From: a virus
IMG/VR virus record: IMGVR_UViG_3300023112_000012
Span: 1 to 64,000 of that record
DNA: 64,000 nt
Direction: 5' to 3' (one strand)
The notes beneath the pieces were generated by a model, which saw only the letters and a list, made by a program, of their open reading frames with translations, was not told the origin of the DNA and made no database searches. Position numbers and translations under genes: made by a program. Within the stretch, counting starts at the first letter, position 1. The number at the start of each line of letters is the position of its first letter. Below, one piece after another: positions 4,277 to 57,566 of this stretch.

Positions 4277-4339
4277 CAATTGAGTTGAACAACCTCAACT
4301 CTATAATACTATTATCGCATATCTAAATATAAAAGTCAA
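4277..4339 (-). promoter_or_regulatory. Early promoter with 5' stem-loop leader
   Basis: Minus strand: TTGACT (4339-4334), 17-bp spacer, GATAAT (4316-4311). The transcript should begin with GAGTTGA/TCAACTC pairing around a 6-nt loop (near 4281-4301), then TTGTTAATT and the ribosome site. Same design as at 4819 and 5439. Confidence 0.7.
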
Positions 4340-18108: not shown

Positions 18109-18462
18109 CTATGAATATTTTTTCATTACTTTACACATTTTGTCAAAAATATCATCTTTAGAATAAATACCACCAGAACCTTTAGAATTTGAAATTTCAT
18201 CGCGAAATTTTCCATCAATTGTAATTGTTAATTCAACACCTCTAGATTCTTCAATTGTAATATAATTTTCATCTCTAAAATTAACTATTAATTTATCTTC
18301 GTTATGTTCTGCAATTGATACACTATCAAAATAACAATCTTCTCCTAATTCATTTACACAAACATCTGGAAAATTATATCTTATATTTTGTTCCAATAAC
18401 AGAAGTAAATTATAATTTTTATTTGATAATGCTTTATCATTTTTATTTTCTTGTGTGTTCAT
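18109..18462 (-). CDS. Hypothetical protein between gp44 and gp45
   Basis: 117 aa. No match to gp62 or RegA by eye. Acidic/beta-rich centre (YFDSVSIAEHNEDKLIVNFRDENYITI...VELTITIDGKF). Located in the replication cluster, so a replisome-associated role is possible. Ribosome site TAGGAGGATATT; a strong hairpin (18478-18501) precedes it. Confidence 0.5.
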   Translation of the reverse strand: MNTQENKNDKALSNKNYNLLLLLEQNIRYNFPDVCVNELGEDCYFDSVSIAEHNEDKLIVNFRDENYITIEESRGVELTITIDGKFRDEISNSKGSGGIYSKDDIFDKMCKVMKKYS

Positions 18463-18477
18463 AATATCCTCCTAAAT

Positions 18478-18501
18478 TGGGTGGTATATTTCAACCACCC
18501 A
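18478..18501 (-). promoter_or_regulatory. Perfect hairpin between gp45 and the next gene
   Basis: 8-bp perfect stem TGGGTGGT/ACCACCCA around an 8-nt loop, just after the gp45 stop and 9-12 nt before the next ribosome site. There is no T-run, so it is not a standard terminator; it may be a processing or attenuation element. Confidence 0.6.
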
Positions 18502-28518: not shown

Positions 28519-28546
28519 ATTATACTTATTTTTTTCTATAAGTCAA
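28519..28546 (-). promoter_or_regulatory. Early promoter, class A
   Basis: Minus strand TTGACT (28546-28541), 16-bp spacer ending AATAAG, TATAAT (28524-28519). It overlaps the end of the ThyX-like gene. Confidence 0.75.
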
Positions 28547-29116
28547 GAACTTTTCATATCTTTTTTTGATATCACTCAGATCATAGTCTTTATATTCATT
28601 TCTGAATTGATTGAAAAATCCACAATTGTTCATTTCTGGACATCCAAACCTATACACACATTCAGGCACACAAACAAGATATAGTTCTGGTTCTTCTTCT
28701 TTGAATGTTTCTAGAAGTGATTTCCATGCTTCTCTAGTCTCTTTGTGTGATTGATTACATAACCGTTTTCTAGATATGTTGATGATTGCTTGTGCGTTTG
28801 CCTCACAATTGTGGTTAACTGGTGTGTCTTGTGGTGATTTGTCTCTGTTGTTGTTTGTTCTATCATTTCTTTGTGTGGATATGAAATGAATTGTCCCAAT
28901 TGAATGTCTGCTGAAATGTGTTGCAATCCAACTTTTCAAACCTTTCCACGTCCAGTCTATTTTTAATTTCCTAATTGGTGAATGTTCTGCAATCAATAGA
29001 TTTAGTTTGAATTTTTTAGATGGTTCTTTATCAAGTGGTGATTTATTAACTGTGTTTCTTGCTGCTGAAAGAATACTTGTCCATGTGTTAGATATGTTGT
29101 TTAGAATGACTTTCAA
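28526..29116 (-). CDS. ThyX-like flavin thymidylate synthase-related protein
   Basis: 196 aa. 'ATHFSRHSIGTIHFISTQRNDR' corresponds to the RHR-type signature region of ThyX, and 'ISRKRLCNQSHKETREAWKSL...CVPECVYRFGCPE' to the C-terminal conserved block. ThyX makes dTMP with FAD. It lacks the exact RHRx7S spacing, so activity is not assured. Start ATG at 29116. Confidence 0.5.
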   Translation of the reverse strand: MKVILNNISNTWTSILSAARNTVNKSPLDKEPSKKFKLNLLIAEHSPIRKLKIDWTWKGLKSWIATHFSRHSIGTIHFISTQRNDRTNNNRDKSPQDTPVNHNCEANAQAIINISRKRLCNQSHKETREAWKSLLETFKEEEPELYLVCVPECVYRFGCPEMNNCGFFNQFRNEYKDYDLSDIKKRYEKFLTYRKK

Positions 29117-29140: not shown

Positions 29141-29296
29141 TCAAATGATTAAATTTCTAATATGATTATTTTTCATTCGTTTATATGCTCTAATACTGCT
29201 TCCTATATAAACTTTATTATTAACCAAATTAGTAATTTTATAAATTACACAAATTTCTTTTTTAATTATTTTTTCTAATAATTCTTGACTTTTCAT
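29141..29296 (-). pseudogene. Truncated GIY-YIG endonuclease remnant
   Basis: 51 aa, MKSQELLEK...VIYKITNLVNNKVYIGSS...YKR. This matches the first about 50 residues of the intact 264-aa protein at 56772 (same GIY-YIG region), then ends. It lacks the catalytic Glu and DNA-binding domain. ATG at 29296 with ACGGAG upstream. Confidence 0.7.
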
Positions 29297-29326
29297 CTTG
29301 ATCTCCGTATAATATATATAACTTAT

Positions 29327-29382
29327 AGGGTGTGTCACTCCGTAACACAAAGTTGAATGAATTCCAGTTCATTCAACACCCT
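29327..29382 (-). ncRNA. Three-way-junction element, copy 1
   Basis: On the minus strand three stems close without leftover bases: P1 AGGGT/ACCCT (29378-29382 with 29327-29331), P2 10 bp GTTGAATGAA/TTCATTCAAC with 6-nt loop, P3 7 bp GTGTTAC/GTGACAC with GGA loop, joined by TTT. Preceded on the minus strand by a 20-nt sequence identical to copy 2 (43301-43320). Confidence 0.65.
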
Positions 29383-29392
29383 TTCTATTATT

Positions 29393-29400
29393 TATTTATA
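29393..29400 (-). promoter_or_regulatory. Late promoter (TATAAATA)
   Basis: Exact leftward motif; transcription would start just before the three-way-junction element and read into the GIY-YIG remnant. Confidence 0.55.
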
Positions 29401-29413
29401 AAAACATATAGAA

Positions 29414-29442
29414 ACAAAAAAGGCGCCCAAGAAGGACGCCTT
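29414..29442 (-). terminator. Rho-independent terminator
   Basis: Minus strand AAGGCGTCC/GGGCGCCTT (9 bp, one G-T pair), loop TTCTT, followed by a T-run. Terminates the leftward structural gene 29472-30347. Confidence 0.85.
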
Positions 29443-29471: not shown

Positions 29472-30347
29472 TTAAGCAGTAAATGTTATTGGTGGAGAAA
29501 CAACTTTTCTACCATCATCAAATTTAACAACAGCGTAAACAGTTGGTCCACCTGTGGCTTCTTCCACATCCACATCCACGGTTCCATCAAGCTCACTAAC
29601 AAGTAAAAGTGTTTGTTTTGCTTCTAATACTGCAAGAATATCACCAGCAGTTCCTATAGCTAAACTATCGCTTGTAGCAACAGGAACAATTCCTCTGTTA
29701 TCGCTAGAAATATAAAATTCTACAATACCAGCAGAATTAACTAGTGCATCACCAGCAGAATCAAGAAGTTGCATTCCTACATTAATTTTATCAGATCCTT
29801 CAGCGCCAATTGTCCATATAACAGCGTCTGCTACCACTTCATCAATTAAAGTAACAGTGATAGTGGTGATTCCCGTTCCGCTTGCAGGATCTTTTATAGT
29901 GCCAGAAAAATTCAATCTTGTTCCAAGTGTTTTTAAAAGTGCTTGTGGTTTGATGTAGAAAGTTGTTGTAGCAGCCGCAGTGATTGCTCCGACTGCAAGA
30001 GTGATTGTTTCATAGTCAGTTGTTCCAGCTGCATTCTGAACTTTGATTACAATAGTACTTCCCGTTGGTAGATCTTCACCAGTTGTAGTTGCATCTATCT
30101 TAAGAAGTTTTTCTCCTGTAAAACCATCCATATCGAAATCATACGCGGTGTCTCCTGCTGTAGATGCTAAAGACAGAGCATTAACAGGTTTTGTCCAATC
30201 AGTGTTTGCAACTAAAATACCAGCATCCACTAGATCTGAACCATAGTCTTCATCTAAATCAACTGAAACACCATCAGCAATAAATTTTGTTATGCCTGAA
30301 TATAAATCCAGCGTACAATCAATAAGTGTTGTGTAACTTTTTTTCAT
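29472..30347 (-). CDS. Probable virion protein (Ig-like, beta-rich)
   Basis: 291 aa. ATG 30347 with TTGGAGAAAAA upstream (the upstream TTG has none). Ala/Thr/Val-rich, beta-strand repeats (e.g. TITVTLIDE, ending VYAVVKFDDGRKVVSPPITFTA), typical of head-decoration or tail adhesin proteins. Higher G+C and different codon use than neighbours. It has a late promoter and its own terminator, so it is a single-gene, highly expressed unit. A precise match was not found by eye. Confidence 0.6.
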   Translation of the reverse strand: MKKSYTTLIDCTLDLYSGITKFIADGVSVDLDEDYGSDLVDAGILVANTDWTKPVNALSLASTAGDTAYDFDMDGFTGEKLLKIDATTTGEDLPTGSTIVIKVQNAAGTTDYETITLAVGAITAAATTTFYIKPQALLKTLGTRLNFSGTIKDPASGTGITTITVTLIDEVVADAVIWTIGAEGSDKINVGMQLLDSAGDALVNSAGIVEFYISSDNRGIVPVATSDSLAIGTAGDILAVLEAKQTLLLVSELDGTVDVDVEEATGGPTVYAVVKFDDGRKVVSPPITFTA

Positions 30348-30385
30348 TTTTTTCTCCAAAAATTTTAATTAGTAATTACCATCTT

Positions 30386-32461: not shown

Positions 32462-33499
32462 TCAAACACCAGTCGACCCAAAACCATTTTCTCCACGATC
32501 GGTTTCATCAAGTTCTTTTACATATTCATAATTTTCTATATTTATTGGAATTGTTAATAACTGTGCTATTCTATCACCAACATTAACTTTAAATGGTTTA
32601 TCTCCAAAATTATATAAAAGAATTTTAACTTCCCCTGTGTACGTTGAATCTATACACCCTGCACCAACTTGAATTCCGTGTTTTACTGATAATCCACTTC
32701 TGGACCATATTATGCCAACATATTCATTTGGAATTTTTATATATAAATCTGTTGATAATAATTTTCTAGCATTTGGTTCAATTATAATTTCTTCATTTGA
32801 TTTTATATCTAACCCAGCATCAAATATATGTCTTTTATATAATTTAGAACCTTTTTGTTTTCCTTTAATTTTTTTATATCTTCCCTTTTCATCTCTTTTC
32901 ATTTTCATGTCTTTTACATGTAATGAAGTATGATCACCCAATGACATAATTTCTAAGTTTTCAATTGTATTATTTAATTTATTTAGATCTTTATGATGAA
33001 TAACAACAGAAGGATCTAAAAATAATTCGTCAAAATCTTTTACACCAATTAAATATTCAGAATCTGGATAATTTGCTCTTAAATGTTCTTCCATTATTAT
33101 TCTATGTAAAAAAATTTTGTTACTACTATTTTTAAATGGATGTGTTAAACATCTCAAATCTAAATATCCGTAATTAGTTAAAGATAAATCACCCTTATAT
33201 GTTGAATTTAATTCTCCTTTTAATCCATATTGATGATTTTTTTCACCTAGAAATTCAGTCTTTTTAAGCTCATATGCACATTCTTTAGAACAACATATTT
33301 TTTCTTTATCTTTTAATCTGTTTAATCTATGAGGTTTAACATGAAATGTTTTTCCACATATTGAACATTTTACGTTATCTGATAATTTTTTTGAAATATC
33401 AGAACATTTTCTAGAACAATATTTTGCTTCTCCTTTCTTAAATCTACTAGGATATATTTCAAATGTTTTTCCACATTGTAAACAAGTAAGTTTAATCAT
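32462..33499 (-). CDS. HNH endonuclease-dUTPase fusion
   Basis: 345 aa. N-terminus has two zinc-ribbon-like motifs (CLQCGKTF...CSRKC and CSICGKTF...CSKEC), then an HNH motif (SVVIHHKDLNKLNNTIENLEIM, about residues 165-186), then a full dUTPase: DAGLDI (motif 1), WSRSGLSVKHG (2), CIDSTYTGEVKILLY (3), GDRIAQLL (4), RGENGFGSTG (5). The domain order is typical of a homing-endonuclease gene fused in frame to a host gene. Whether one protein or processed is unknown. Lies next to a second dUTPase. Confidence 0.8.
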   Translation of the reverse strand: MIKLTCLQCGKTFEIYPSRFKKGEAKYCSRKCSDISKKLSDNVKCSICGKTFHVKPHRLNRLKDKEKICCSKECAYELKKTEFLGEKNHQYGLKGELNSTYKGDLSLTNYGYLDLRCLTHPFKNSSNKIFLHRIIMEEHLRANYPDSEYLIGVKDFDELFLDPSVVIHHKDLNKLNNTIENLEIMSLGDHTSLHVKDMKMKRDEKGRYKKIKGKQKGSKLYKRHIFDAGLDIKSNEEIIIEPNARKLLSTDLYIKIPNEYVGIIWSRSGLSVKHGIQVGAGCIDSTYTGEVKILLYNFGDKPFKVNVGDRIAQLLTIPINIENYEYVKELDETDRGENGFGSTGV

Positions 33500-33509
33500 T
33501 TAAATCTCC

Positions 33510-33908
33510 TTATATTTCTTTTAAATTTTCAACAACAACAATGTCTGCTTTGGGCACATATTGAAGCACTCCCTGAGCGATTCTCATGCCCTTCTTAACA
33601 CGAAAAGAATAATCTGATGTATTGTATAGGATGATCTTTATTTCATTATTATTATTTTCATCTATAGTGCCTGGTGCATTAAGAACAGTCAAACCTTCCC
33701 TTGCAGCAAGTCCACTTCTTGGTCTTATTTGAATTTCATAACCTTTTGGAATTTGACACCTTATTCCAGTGGATATGATTTTCCTTTTTCCTTTTGGAAT
33801 TATGACAGTTTCATTTGCAGCAATATCAAACCCACTTGCACCTTCTGTCTGATATTCAGGTATCTTTACACCTTTGTCTAATTTTAATTTTAAAACTTGA
33901 TTTTCCAT
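33510..33908 (-). CDS. dUTPase lacking motif 5
   Basis: 132 aa from ATG 33908 (AAAGGAGGAAGA). Motifs: ASGFDI (1), RPRSGLAA (2), GTIDENNNNEIKIIL (3; normally has Tyr), GMRIAQGVLQ (4). It stops before the Gly-rich motif 5 that closes the active site in trimers. It may need the C-terminus of the neighbouring fusion or be inactive. Confidence 0.8.
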   Translation of the reverse strand: MENQVLKLKLDKGVKIPEYQTEGASGFDIAANETVIIPKGKRKIISTGIRCQIPKGYEIQIRPRSGLAAREGLTVLNAPGTIDENNNNEIKIILYNTSDYSFRVKKGMRIAQGVLQYVPKADIVVVENLKEI

Positions 33909-34001
33909 TCTTCCTCCTTTGAAAAATTCTCTGATCATCTTATCTTCATTTATTATTTTCATTTTTCACCATTCTCAAACCTCTTTTAATATTAATTAAT
34001 T

Positions 34002-39255: not shown

Positions 39256-39870
39256 ATGAAAACTACTTTAGGGAAAATAAAATCTTTCAATCCGTGTGTA
39301 CCCGGCTGGAAAAAATTATGTAAATCTTTAGGGACAACAAACCTAGATACTGAAGTTTCAATACTTCAGATTTTAGAAATCAATGGTGTGGAAGATGCTT
39401 TTTGGGCACTTCGCACCCAAGAATATGAAGACTACTGTATTGTCATTGCGGATATTGAAGAATCTACACTTCATATTTTTGAGGAAGAACATCCTAAAGA
39501 TGTTCGACCTAGAAATTTAATTCAAGCTATTAGGAATTACAAAGTACGTAAAATTTCTAAAAAAGAACTTATTACATTTCATAATTCTGCTTGTATTGCT
39601 TATAATGCTGTTGCCTATGATGCTGTTAATACTACTACTGCTGCTGCTACTGCCGCTAATGCTGCTGCTTCTGTTTATGCTGCTGATGCTGCTAATGATA
39701 CTGATGTTGATGCTACTTATGCTTATGCTGCTGTTGTTAGTGCTGCTGTTGCTGCCTATTATGCTGCTGATGCTGATAATGCTGTTGATGCTGCTGATGC
39801 TTATGCTTATGCTAAAGAAAACCAATGGGAGATTAATGAAAATATATTAAGAAAACATTTGGAGAAATAA
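39256..39870 (+). CDS. CVPGW-domain protein with Ala/Asp/Tyr low-complexity repeat
   Basis: 204 aa. The N-terminal half (PCVPGWKKLCKSLG, then ILEINGVEDAFWALR) matches a family found in phages and bacteria (sometimes called putative immunity protein) that often has Ala-rich helical repeats. Residues about 115-190 here consist almost wholly of A, D, V, Y, N, T, encoded by GCT-like triplets. First gene of the operon. Function unknown. Confidence 0.6.
   Translation: MKTTLGKIKSFNPCVPGWKKLCKSLGTTNLDTEVSILQILEINGVEDAFWALRTQEYEDYCIVIADIEESTLHIFEEEHPKDVRPRNLIQAIRNYKVRKISKKELITFHNSACIAYNAVAYDAVNTTTAAATAANAAASVYAADAANDTDVDATYAYAAVVSAAVAAYYAADADNAVDAADAYAYAKENQWEINENILRKHLEK
39600..39815 (+). repeat. 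Imperfect triplet repeat (GCT/GAT/GTT)
   Basis: About 216 nt of near-continuous GCT, GAT, GTT, ACT, AAT codons within the gene above. Slippage-prone; copy number may vary between isolates. Confidence 0.7.
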
Positions 39871-42072: not shown

Positions 42073-43218
42073 TTATATTAAATTTCCTTTACCATCAAAA
42101 ATCATAAACATGAATTCATATCCTTGATTCAAACATGCTTGTCGCTTTGCTAGATTTTTTTCAAGATTAACTTCATATGTATAAGTTGATTTTACTTCTA
42201 TTATTAAGTTTTCAGAAGGAATGTAGATATCGGGTGTATATACTCTATTTTTATCTTCAAATATATACTTAATTTTTGGAACATTTGTTGATTTAGTGAT
42301 AATATCACTTTCTTCATACAACTCAACTAGAAAATCTAATGCTAAATGTTCATATCCTTGAACTAGTCTTGTATTGCCACTAGGCATTGTGTATTGTTTA
42401 GAAGTAAATCTTGATTTTTGATTTTTTTCAAATATTTCTGGATTATGCATAGGATGATCAACGCCATATCTTTCTTGACATGTCTGTTTTGATTTTTCTT
42501 GTTTGTCTTCAGATTGTAAATAATATTCACATCCATATTTTTCTTGACAAGTTTGTTTTAATTTTTCTTTAAATTCTTTTGTTTGCGAATAATGATCAAC
42601 ATCATATTTTTCTTTTATTGTTTCTTTCATTTTGGTTTTCACTTCTTTAGATTGAAGTGGGTAACTAACTCCATGATTATTCATACACGTTTCTTCTTTC
42701 TGCTTCTTTATCTTTGGATCTTTGCTAGGATTACTAACTCCATGATTATTCATACACGTTTCTTCTTTCTGCTTCTTTATCTTTGGATCTTTGATAGGAT
42801 GTTTATATCCAGTTCTTTCAAAATATGTTTGGTTTGATTTTTCTCTAATTTCTTCTGATTTTAAAGGGTTTGTAACTCCATGATTTTTCATGCAAGTTTC
42901 TTCTTTTTGTTTTTTTATTATGTCAGATTTACTTGGGTTATCAACACCATAATTCTTTAACCATGTTTCTTTAGTCTTTTTTTGTACTTCTTTTGAATTA
43001 GTAGAACACTTATTTGAACAAAATCGTCTATATCCTTGTCCAATACTTTTAAATCTTGTTTCTTTTCCACATTCTAAACACACACCTTCATTTTCTTGTT
43101 TAAAATATGTATCATAATATTTTTTAGATTTCATTTTATGAGTTTTTAAATGATTTCCTAAACTTTGAAAACTTTTAAACTCTCTTTCACAAATCTGACA
43201 TTTAATTTTTTCTTTCAT
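42073..43218 (-). CDS. Putative homing endonuclease: C2H2-type zinc fingers, HGV repeats, PD-(D/E)XK-like domain
   Basis: 381 aa. N-terminus has CxxC-H-type finger (CQICEREFKSFQSLGNHLKTH) and a CxxC...C zinc motif (CLECGKETRF...CSNKC), then repeats of about 23 residues with 'KKQKEETCMNNHGVSNPS', then a C-terminal nuclease-like core YTPDIYIPSENLIIEVKSTYTY (D...E-V-K). This domain order is known from phage free-standing endonucleases. It lies opposite to flanking genes, an insertion typical of homing genes. Ribosome site GAGGTTGAATC. Confidence 0.65.
   Translation of the reverse strand: MKEKIKCQICEREFKSFQSLGNHLKTHKMKSKKYYDTYFKQENEGVCLECGKETRFKSIGQGYRRFCSNKCSTNSKEVQKKTKETWLKNYGVDNPSKSDIIKKQKEETCMKNHGVTNPLKSEEIREKSNQTYFERTGYKHPIKDPKIKKQKEETCMNNHGVSNPSKDPKIKKQKEETCMNNHGVSYPLQSKEVKTKMKETIKEKYDVDHYSQTKEFKEKLKQTCQEKYGCEYYLQSEDKQEKSKQTCQERYGVDHPMHNPEIFEKNQKSRFTSKQYTMPSGNTRLVQGYEHLALDFLVELYEESDIITKSTNVPKIKYIFEDKNRVYTPDIYIPSENLIIEVKSTYTYEVNLEKNLAKRQACLNQGYEFMFMIFDGKGNLI
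42664..42793. repeat. Tandem repeat, 61 identical nt with 69-nt period
   Basis: 42664-42724 and 42733-42793 are identical, encoding two HGV repeats of the endonuclease. Recent duplication of the module. Confidence 0.85.
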
Positions 43219-43232
43219 GATTCAACCTCATA

Positions 43233-43240
43233 TATAAATA
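43233..43240 (+). promoter_or_regulatory. Orphan late motif (TATAAATA)
   Basis: Exact motif on the plus strand but no late gene follows until small ORFs at 43394. May be chance. Confidence 0.3.
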
Positions 43241-43247
43241 GATTAAC

Positions 43248-43305
43248 AGGGGCAAACATCAACCTCGTTTGCAAGTTCATTGTGCGTCAACACAATGAAC
43301 ACCCT
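43248..43305 (-). ncRNA. Three-way-junction element, copy 2
   Basis: Minus strand: P1 AGGG/CCCT (43302-43305 with 43248-43251), P2 GTTCATTGTG/CACAATGAAC (10 bp, 6-nt loop), P3 GCAAAC/GTTTGC (6 bp, 9-nt loop), with two-base linker. Same architecture as copy 1, different arm sequences. It precedes the endonuclease gene at 43218. Confidence 0.65.
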
Positions 43306-43335
43306 TTCTATTATTTATTTTTATTTAAATAATTC

Positions 43336-48996: not shown

Positions 48997-50235
48997 ATGG
49001 ATATGATGGTAGTAAAAAACTTAACATTGAGCGAAGAAAATAATTTTTTTTGTTGTGAATGTGAAAGAACATTTAAAAGTTTATCTGGTCTTAGTATTCA
49101 TGTTAATAGAATGCATAAAGATATAGCTGGAAAAATACTAATAAAATATATTAGACAATTTGTAGAATCTGTAGATGGGTATAAACTTTTAAGTGATGCT
49201 TATATTAATAGTAAAACTATTCTAGAAATTCAGTGTATTAAGTGTCACAAATTCAAGATGAGATGGGATTGCTTTCAACAAGGTCAAAGATGCCCAATTT
49301 GCTGCAATGAATCAAAGAGATTATCAATATCAGAAGTTAAGAAATATATTGAAAGTTTTAAAGATTATAAGCTTTTGTGTAAAGATTATATTAATAATAA
49401 AACTAATCTAAATATGATTTGTCCATATGGTCATGTATTTAAAATGAATTTTGATAGATTTCAACAAGGTCAAAGATGTCCGGTGTGTTATGGTAATAAA
49501 AAGAAAACTATTGAAGAAATTAGAGAATTTGTAGAATCAAAAGAATATAAACTTTTGAGTGATACTTATATTAATAATTCGACAAAATTAGATATGATTT
49601 GTCCAGATGGTCATATATTTAAAATGTGTTGGAATAATTTTATGTTTGGAAATAGATGTCCGGTGTGTTATGGTAATAAAAAGAAAACTATTGAAGAAAT
49701 TAGAAAGTATGTTGAACAAGAAGGTTATATATTATTAAGCAAAGAATATATAAATTCACATAGTAATCTTGAAATAAAATGTTCAAGTGGACATGTATTT
49801 AAAATGAATTGGACAAACTTCAGTAGTGGAAAAAGATGTCCCAAATGTAAAAGGTCTAAAGGGGAAGAAATAATTGCTAAAATATTAGAATCAAATTATA
49901 TAGAGTTTGAAACACAAAAACGGTTTGATGAGTGTAAAAACATATTGCATCTGCCTTTCGATTTTTATATACCATCATTAAACATTCTGATAGAATATGA
50001 TGGCGAACAACACTTTAAACCTTTTAGTTTTAGTAGTAATAGAACTCAGGAAACTATGAACATTAATTTTATTAATATTATGTTGAGAGATGAAATAAAA
50101 ACTAATTTCGCAAGTTCAAATAATATTAAATTGCTTAGAATTTCTTATTACAATTTTTATAATATAGAAGAAATTATCAAAAAACATTTAAATATATGGA
50201 TTAAAAATGTTAATTACAAAAATACAAGAAAATAA
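48997..50235 (+). CDS. EDxHD-type (Vsr-like) homing endonuclease with zinc-finger repeats
   Basis: 412 aa. A C2H2-type finger (CCECERTFKSLSGLSIHVNRMH) is followed by four repeats of about 60-70 residues, each 'CxxGHxFKMxWxxFxxGxRCPxC' (treble-clef-like zinc units). C-terminus: GEEIIAKILE...LPFDFYIPSLNILIEYDGEQHFKPF (E...D...D-G-E-Q-H), then later acidic residues, the EDxHD pattern. Such enzymes are Vsr-like homing endonucleases of T4-like phages. It ends 29 nt into the next gene. Confidence 0.75.
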   Translation: MDMMVVKNLTLSEENNFFCCECERTFKSLSGLSIHVNRMHKDIAGKILIKYIRQFVESVDGYKLLSDAYINSKTILEIQCIKCHKFKMRWDCFQQGQRCPICCNESKRLSISEVKKYIESFKDYKLLCKDYINNKTNLNMICPYGHVFKMNFDRFQQGQRCPVCYGNKKKTIEEIREFVESKEYKLLSDTYINNSTKLDMICPDGHIFKMCWNNFMFGNRCPVCYGNKKKTIEEIRKYVEQEGYILLSKEYINSHSNLEIKCSSGHVFKMNWTNFSSGKRCPKCKRSKGEEIIAKILESNYIEFETQKRFDECKNILHLPFDFYIPSLNILIEYDGEQHFKPFSFSSNRTQETMNINFINIMLRDEIKTNFASSNNIKLLRISYYNFYNIEEIIKKHLNIWIKNVNYKNTRK

Positions 50236-56771: not shown

Positions 56772-57566
56772 ATGAAATGTCAAGAAATTTTAGAAACTAA
56801 ACCATCTGTTTTTGGTAAATATTGCGGGATATATAAAATTGTTAATTTAATTAATAATAAAGTTTATATTGGTTCAAGTGTTGATATTTTTAAAAGATGG
56901 AAAAAGGGTCATTTAAGAACTTTAAATAAAAATGAACACGATAATAAATATTTACAAAGATCTTGGAATAAATATAGTTCTGAAAATTTTGAATTTGAAA
57001 TAGTTAAAATTTGTTCGGAAATGCTTTTATTAGAAATGGAATCATTCTATTTAGATAAATTTTGTGGTTGTAATAGTGATATAAATTATAATTTAATGGA
57101 TCCGTTGAGACTTGAAATAACAAATGAGTATAGAAAATTAGTATCAGAACAAACAAAAGGTTCAAATAATCCAAGAGCTTTAATAAATGAGCAAACAGTA
57201 AAAGAAATTAAAACAATACTAAACATGTGTTACAAATATAAGTTAAAAATAACTACAAAACTTGTTTCTGAAATGTTTAGTGTATCTGAACATATAATAA
57301 GAAATATAAAAAGTGAAAAAACGTGGAAACATGTGTCAATAGATGAAAAAATTTTATACACACAAAAAATACATAGACGTGGTGAAGATAGTATAGACAC
57401 AAATCTAACAAATGATATTGTTAGAGAAATAAAAATTTTATTACAATTAAGAAATGAAACTGAACTTAAACTAACATATAAATTTATTGCAGAAATGTAT
57501 GATATAACATATAGAGTAGTTGAAAAAATAGCATATAACATAACATGGAAACATATTCATATATAA
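56772..57566 (+). CDS. GIY-YIG homing endonuclease
   Basis: 264 aa. GIY motif YCGIYKIVNLINNKVYIGSS, catalytic Arg in RWKKGH and Glu in LLLEMESFYL; C-terminal half has two related helix-turn-helix-like repeats (KLVSEMFSVSEHIIRNI and KFIAEMYDITYRVVEKI) for DNA binding. It is free-standing between gp23 and the recombination genes. ATG after AGAGGTTAGA. Confidence 0.9.
   Translation: MKCQEILETKPSVFGKYCGIYKIVNLINNKVYIGSSVDIFKRWKKGHLRTLNKNEHDNKYLQRSWNKYSSENFEFEIVKICSEMLLLEMESFYLDKFCGCNSDINYNLMDPLRLEITNEYRKLVSEQTKGSNNPRALINEQTVKEIKTILNMCYKYKLKITTKLVSEMFSVSEHIIRNIKSEKTWKHVSIDEKILYTQKIHRRGEDSIDTNLTNDIVREIKILLQLRNETELKLTYKFIAEMYDITYRVVEKIAYNITWKHIHI

Follow-up and report, generated by a model that had tools for sequence, protein, structure and literature searches.

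The window analysed here comprises the first 64,000 nt (positions 1-64000) of an IMG/VR virus record 67 kb in length. It has a G+C content of 26% and, judging by the proteins it encodes, is part of a divergent, uncultured T4-like phage: besides proteins of the gp46-like, head-closure and helicase types, it encodes a major capsid protein that matches gp23 of known T4-likes at ~26% identity. With only the T4 protein as query, no relative of gp55 was found in these 64 kb. At two places on the minus strand, a sequence able to fold into a three-way junction (stems P1, P2 and P3) lies directly upstream of an endonuclease-type reading frame, amid the following features:

29415-29442, minus strand: intrinsic terminator-like hairpin and T run, by sequence and fold, parting copy 1 from the upstream gene 29472-30359
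29393-29400, minus strand: late-promoter-like TATAAATA of copy 1, 10 nt before P1
29375-29396, minus strand: block identical to copy 2, AATAAATAATAGAAAGGGTGTT, comprising promoter-like box, P1 5' strand and P2 base
29327-29382, minus strand: three-way junction copy 1, consensus pairs P1 29382-29379/29330-29327, P2 29377-29368/29361-29352, P3 29349-29343/29337-29331
29303-29308, minus strand: ribosome-binding site (RBS) ACGGAG, serving the GIY-YIG fragment and not included in the fold; the P3 hairpin repeats TACGGAG
29141-29296, minus strand: 51-aa GIY-YIG fragment ORF, starting 30 nt after P1 of copy 1
28526-29116, minus strand: ThyX-like ORF with TTG start and AGGAG before it; Thy1 match at 2.7e-4, below gathering
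43312-43319, minus strand: promoter-like box AATAAATA of copy 2, one mismatch relative to TATAAATA
43298-43319, minus strand: identical block of copy 2, matching that of copy 1
43248-43305, minus strand: three-way junction copy 2, P1 43305-43302/43251-43248, P2 43300-43291/43284-43275, P3 43272-43266/43258-43252
43226-43229, minus strand: RBS GAGG for the gene behind copy 2; the P3 loop repeats GAGGTTGA
42073-43218, minus strand: 381-aa homing endonuclease-like ORF with C2H2 finger, DUF7487 and TnsA-like end, starting 29 nt after copy 2 P1

The frame behind copy 1 is the GIY-YIG remnant that the earlier note had taken it for: its 51 residues are 55% identical to the first 49 of a paralogue, and a 69-aa frame of the fragment matches Pfam GIY-YIG (2.1e-4) and SegE_GIY-YIG (8.4e-5), both slightly below gathering; the fragment also matches phrog_314 (3.5e-7). 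It is truncated relative to that full-length paralogue (56772-57566), which has a sigma70-type promoter instead and is not preceded by such a junction. Directly behind the fragment follows the ThyX-like ORF, whose motif region is divergent; this association of a thymidylate synthase with GIY-YIG at 28526-29116 recalls td/I-TevI. For copy 2, the context proved stronger than previously stated, in that it, too, precedes a homing endonuclease, one of a different type (phrog_3339, 6e-35; Pfam DUF7487, 3e-81). Scanning of the proteins brought up five endonuclease ORFs in all; two of these have the element upstream, and it is missing before 48997-50235 and before the HNH-dUTPase ORF 32462-33499. The former is an HNH endonuclease-like ORF with internal repeats of ~180 nt (60 aa); the latter, on the minus strand, fuses an HNH endonuclease with a dUTPase domain and adjoins an apparent second dUTPase ORF (33510-33962, minus strand), recognised by eye only. 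A further repeat region, made of near-tandem units of 9-15 nt, extends over a long stretch (39585-39819) within ORF 39256-39870.

How well founded is the fold? For the minus strand of copy 1, RNAfold returns precisely the structure first described—P1 of 5 bp, P2 of 10 bp with a 6-nt loop, P3 of 7 bp with a 3-nt loop, and just three unpaired junction bases (UUU). This fold has -23.1 kcal/mol (z -4.04), with none of 200 shuffles as stable; the element alone (29382-29327) reaches -22.1 kcal/mol (z -4.26). A geometric scan for three-way junctions over both strands of the 64 kb listed five other places, all with weaker stems, making copy 1 the strongest three-way junction of the window under the rules of that scan. 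The second copy, whose existence the earlier note had implied, is indeed present at 43305-43248 on the minus strand and folds at -22.3 kcal/mol alone (z -3.99) and -23.7 kcal/mol with flanks; it is absent from the scan list because its P1 has 4 bp and the scan required 5.

Both copies have in common a block of 22-23 nt, covering the promoter-like box, P1 and the base of P2, together with the UU junction, while their distal arms differ. The alignment shows identity across AATAAATAATAGAAAGGGTGTT, at the AAC-TT following P2 and at the CCCT that closes P1. The consensus of 21 pairs (P1 4 bp, P2 10 bp, P3 7 bp), in which copy 1's fifth P1 pair (U-A) is traded for a P3 pair, holds at 42 of 42 cells across the two copies: nine pairs are changed on both sides, two on one side via G-U, and ten are invariant. 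None of 500 shuffled controls matched this compensation and slid controls came nowhere near it, although these statistics overstate the case somewhat, because there are only two sequences and they also served in part to choose the structure. Copies 1 and 2 alone give the full 21-pair fit on either strand of the 64 kb when the P3 loop may have 3-9 nt; 20 pairs are reached at two further places, with A-U- and G-U-rich stems. The element is real, non-random and structured.

Being inverted repeats, the elements fold on the opposite strand as well (copy 1 -19.5, copy 2 -22.4) and also as DNA. Energy alone therefore cannot pick the strand; the orientation of promoter and ORF does. Where only one side of a pair has changed, the result is G-U in coding sense in both cases, which weakly favours an RNA of that strand. 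Folding on both strands and as DNA, in an AT-rich, repeat-rich genome, would equally suit inverted repeats that arose by chance or act at the DNA level, for instance as hairpin DNA or a mobile-element end, with no function as RNA. We consider this very unlikely: there are two GC-containing 21-pair fits with a common core, G-U pairs would be mismatches in DNA, and common element ends were not seen. The suggestion that the fold marks the end of a mobile DNA element was not borne out, the two loci sharing no convincing similarity apart from the 23-nt core (the runner-up is a match of 13 nt, E 0.025); among the scanned ORFs, no transposase was recognised.

Compensatory changes exist between the two copies. 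The earlier note would have counted a lack of such changes in further genomes against the fold; since no further genome came to light at all, the structure is neither supported nor refuted outside this virus. Neither 22 other phage records nor the IMG/VR or GTDB genomes scanned by pattern (113, 94, 28, 83 and 22 stretches) yielded a third member; the only true match of the scans, L018, was the same virus, agreeing with the window at 99.99% across 10,103 nt. From the two copies we derived a covariance model (R1) and applied it to their own record plus 13 phage records and then to nine T4-likes, giving best non-self E values of 0.058 (Klebsiella phage K64-1), 0.066 and 0.094 (Aeromonas phage 65); the K64-1 and phage 65 candidates fold as hairpins and were rejected. 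Within the window, R1 found no convincing copy elsewhere, the next best hit (E 0.32) being copy 1 on the reverse strand. R1 was also run on locus sets (100 + 100 + 44 + 1 + 81 + 22), leaving aside some small loci, those of the own record, and L211, which is once more the L018 contig. There, the best non-self match (E 0.0016) consisted of three near-identical single terminator hairpins fetched by the promoter word, and the candidates in L137 and L182 were likewise discarded as single hairpins. Protein-led searches for relatives yielded contigs of the same sample series plus one distant GIY-YIG protein (26%), and in one case none. Divergent members would be missed by these approaches, because they used exact core words, close protein relatives and a two-sequence model. 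With no further genome, covariation therefore rests on two sequences from one genome, from which a phylogenetic covariation signal cannot be established.

The late-promoter-like motif reported just upstream of copy 1 is in place, TATAAATA occupying 29393-29400; copy 2 has AATAAATA instead. In T4-type late promoters, the motif precedes the transcription start by ~13 nt. Taking this spacing to apply, copy 1 transcripts would presumably start at ~29387-29382; at most ~5 nt separate the predicted start from the fold, which closes before the RBS is reached. TATAAATA is not over-represented in the window overall (24 occurrences vs 18.5 expected). Ten of the 24 lie 25-60 nt before a start bearing a Shine-Dalgarno (SD) sequence, the highest value among 56 words of the same composition; these well-placed sites, which include those of the capsid gene (55198), 61288 and 61738, have leaders of 23-35 nt. 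At 14 other TATAAATA sites, picked for an ORF start close downstream, the 60 nt that follow the word fold at -1.4 to -5.8 kcal/mol, compared with -20.7 and -23.4 for the two copies.

A promoter abutting a stem-loop with variable arms, tied to variable genes, is reminiscent of the PeSL cassettes of T4-like phages. The copies might accordingly be DNA cassettes of this kind, swapped by recombination at a conserved promoter, whose stem-loops have no specific role as RNA. Such an origin would account for an identical block of 22-23 nt between otherwise unrelated flanks, and further pairs of sigma70-type early promoter and hairpin do occur near 4300, 4810 and 5430 on the minus strand. Yet recombination would have only a short homology of 23 nt to act on, and arms with compensated changes imply selection for pairing; we regard this explanation as unlikely. 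PeSLs consist of a terminator and an early promoter, whereas in our copies a three-way junction sits downstream of a late-type promoter, with neither a U run nor a -35 box. A part played by PeSLs in gene shuffling among T4-likes is reported in PMC4503421.

Near 4300, 4810 and 5430 (minus strand) and at 18490, a sigma70-type early promoter is immediately followed by a hairpin of 7-8 bp with a 6-nt loop, and a comparable hairpin lies upstream of 18109-18462. Three of these hairpins share a common promoter sequence and keep their pairs despite changes. They are not claimed here as a covarying sister class, because 122 of 500 shuffles equalled the seven pairs kept in three sequences.

What, then, might the junction do to the genes behind it? 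In both copies it ends 18-20 nt before the SD, such that the stable fold does not contain the RBS. In the predicted late RNA, most SD bases are open in copy 1, and several RBS bases of copy 2 pair with the coding sequence. One reading invokes temporal control of translation in the style of I-TevI, mobE and segB: an upstream segment would mask the RBS on read-through RNA, late messages would escape, and the junction would merely bring the segments together. Masking on read-through RNA is documented for T4 endonucleases (PMC2988022). In line with this, a copy 1 RNA read through from 29470 should, by prediction, close the SD (unpaired probability ~0) through pairing of UCUCCGAUAUAA (29452-29441) to UUAUACGGAGA, and for an RNA from 29386 the SD is predicted to be mostly open. 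However, such masking is not exceptional: for copy 1, 87 of 1000 shuffled upstream stretches pair equally well (rank 7 of 88 gene starts), and for copy 2, 264 of 1000 (rank 18 of 88). Masking by an upstream segment is thus predicted for copy 1 but no stronger than expected, is not significant against shuffles in either copy, and leaves the conserved junction unexplained; this type of control appears unlikely.

A different effect on translation could emanate from the P3 loop, where each copy repeats its own SD (TACGGAG in copy 1, GAGGTTGA in copy 2), potentially offering ribosomes a standby site or a decoy, or serving as target of a translational regulator. These repeats are copy-specific (7 and 8 nt, with only 4 nt in the cross comparison), and equal lengths were shared by 85 and 51 of 5000 shuffled spacers. 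Of 154 SD-ATG leaders in the window, three and two reach the observed word lengths, counting the own gene and, for copy 2, the P3 site as well. In addition, P3 of copy 2 contains an AUG from which a frame of 14 codons runs to a UGA that overlaps the start codon (AUG) of the endonuclease. On the other hand, the repeats were spotted post hoc, each has a p of only ~0.01-0.02, SD words are stereotyped, and that in P3 of copy 1 is half paired; altogether, we think it quite unlikely that this is what the element is for. Independently of this, the frame overlap ATGA in copy 2 (43218-43260, minus strand) is as in translational coupling, and in copy 1 the ORF starts 14 codons beyond an in-frame GUG in P3.

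The element matches no Rfam 15 family, in agreement with the earlier note, which had matched it to no known motif: Rfam gives just two tRNAs in the window, the best sub-threshold matches to the element falling far below gathering. Nor did we find a three-way-junction leader of phage endonucleases described in the literature searched (open-licence PMC papers). The nearest known arrangement is the leader of seg43, a segD-like GIY-YIG endonuclease gene of Aeromonas phage 25, where a very stable structure sits just 5' of an unmasked RBS (PMC2988022). When refolded, this leader forms a 9-bp hairpin (-19.3 kcal/mol, z -3.81); it differs in being a single hairpin that abuts the RBS, without a three-way junction or a match to our covariance model. 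The I-TevI, I-TevII, I-TevIII, mobE and segB leaders similarly combine a late or middle promoter with RNA structure before a phage endonuclease gene (PMC2988022, PMC3014915), but there the RBS is masked by the structure, and the late promoter is positioned such that late transcripts miss part of the fold. In copies 1 and 2, by contrast, the promoter precedes the fold as a whole, and the RBS lies beyond it. The 5'-terminal stem-loops of ompA and papA stabilise their mRNAs. They resemble our element in placing a stable structure within a few nucleotides of the 5' end and the RBS downstream (papers cited in PMC3997798), yet are single stem-loops of host genes without common sequence, and stabilisation by the phage junction would be an analogy.

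The analysis shows the sequence, its two copies, their compensated pairs, the gene context and the contrast with other late-type leaders; from these, we infer that the element is transcribed from the predicted start, folds in vivo and protects the 5' end of its message. It may well be a structured 5' leader, a cis-acting RNA of late endonuclease messages that caps their 5' end, a proposal we hold with moderate confidence. Transcription from a T4-type late promoter would start within ~5 nt of P1, and the first ~55 nt of the message would fold into a compact three-way junction—with an AGGG/CCCU P1, U and UU junctions, and two long arms free in sequence and constrained to pair—followed by an AU-rich spacer of ~30 nt carrying the RBS. 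By capping the 5' end of selfish endonuclease messages, the fold could shield them from 5'-end-dependent decay, and it may further keep the leader from pairing with the RBS, such that the endonuclease would be made late and independently of neighbouring genes. Several points weigh against this reading: its basis of two sequences in a single genome, AATAAATA in place of TATAAATA at copy 2, the absence of a gp55 relative from the window in the search with the T4 protein, the folding of the opposite strand, and the predicted pairing of RBS bases in copy 2, which makes RBS accessibility uneven. We presume protection of the 5' end to be the leading function, because RBS masking is not exceptional in copy 1 and the hairpin of the nearest arrangement, seg43, leaves the RBS unmasked. 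In copy 1, the endonuclease has decayed, and the leader would now serve the GIY-YIG fragment and the ThyX-like ORF behind it. A bolder version, to our minds a rather unlikely one, would place the element in a class of its own among the leader RNAs of phages, as a junction cassette travelling with, or recruited by, unrelated selfish endonuclease genes, with a fixed core and promoter, drifting arms, and an SD-copying P3 loop that sets endonuclease translation.

Free-standing endonuclease genes must fit the transcription programme of their host phage without harm to it. The element described here is probably a new form of the leader structures by which phages control such genes and, as a short RNA, is directly testable. 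If the shared, compensated leader holds, the regulatory front end would be an asset separable from the nuclease—one that, in copy 1, outlives the decay of the nuclease itself.
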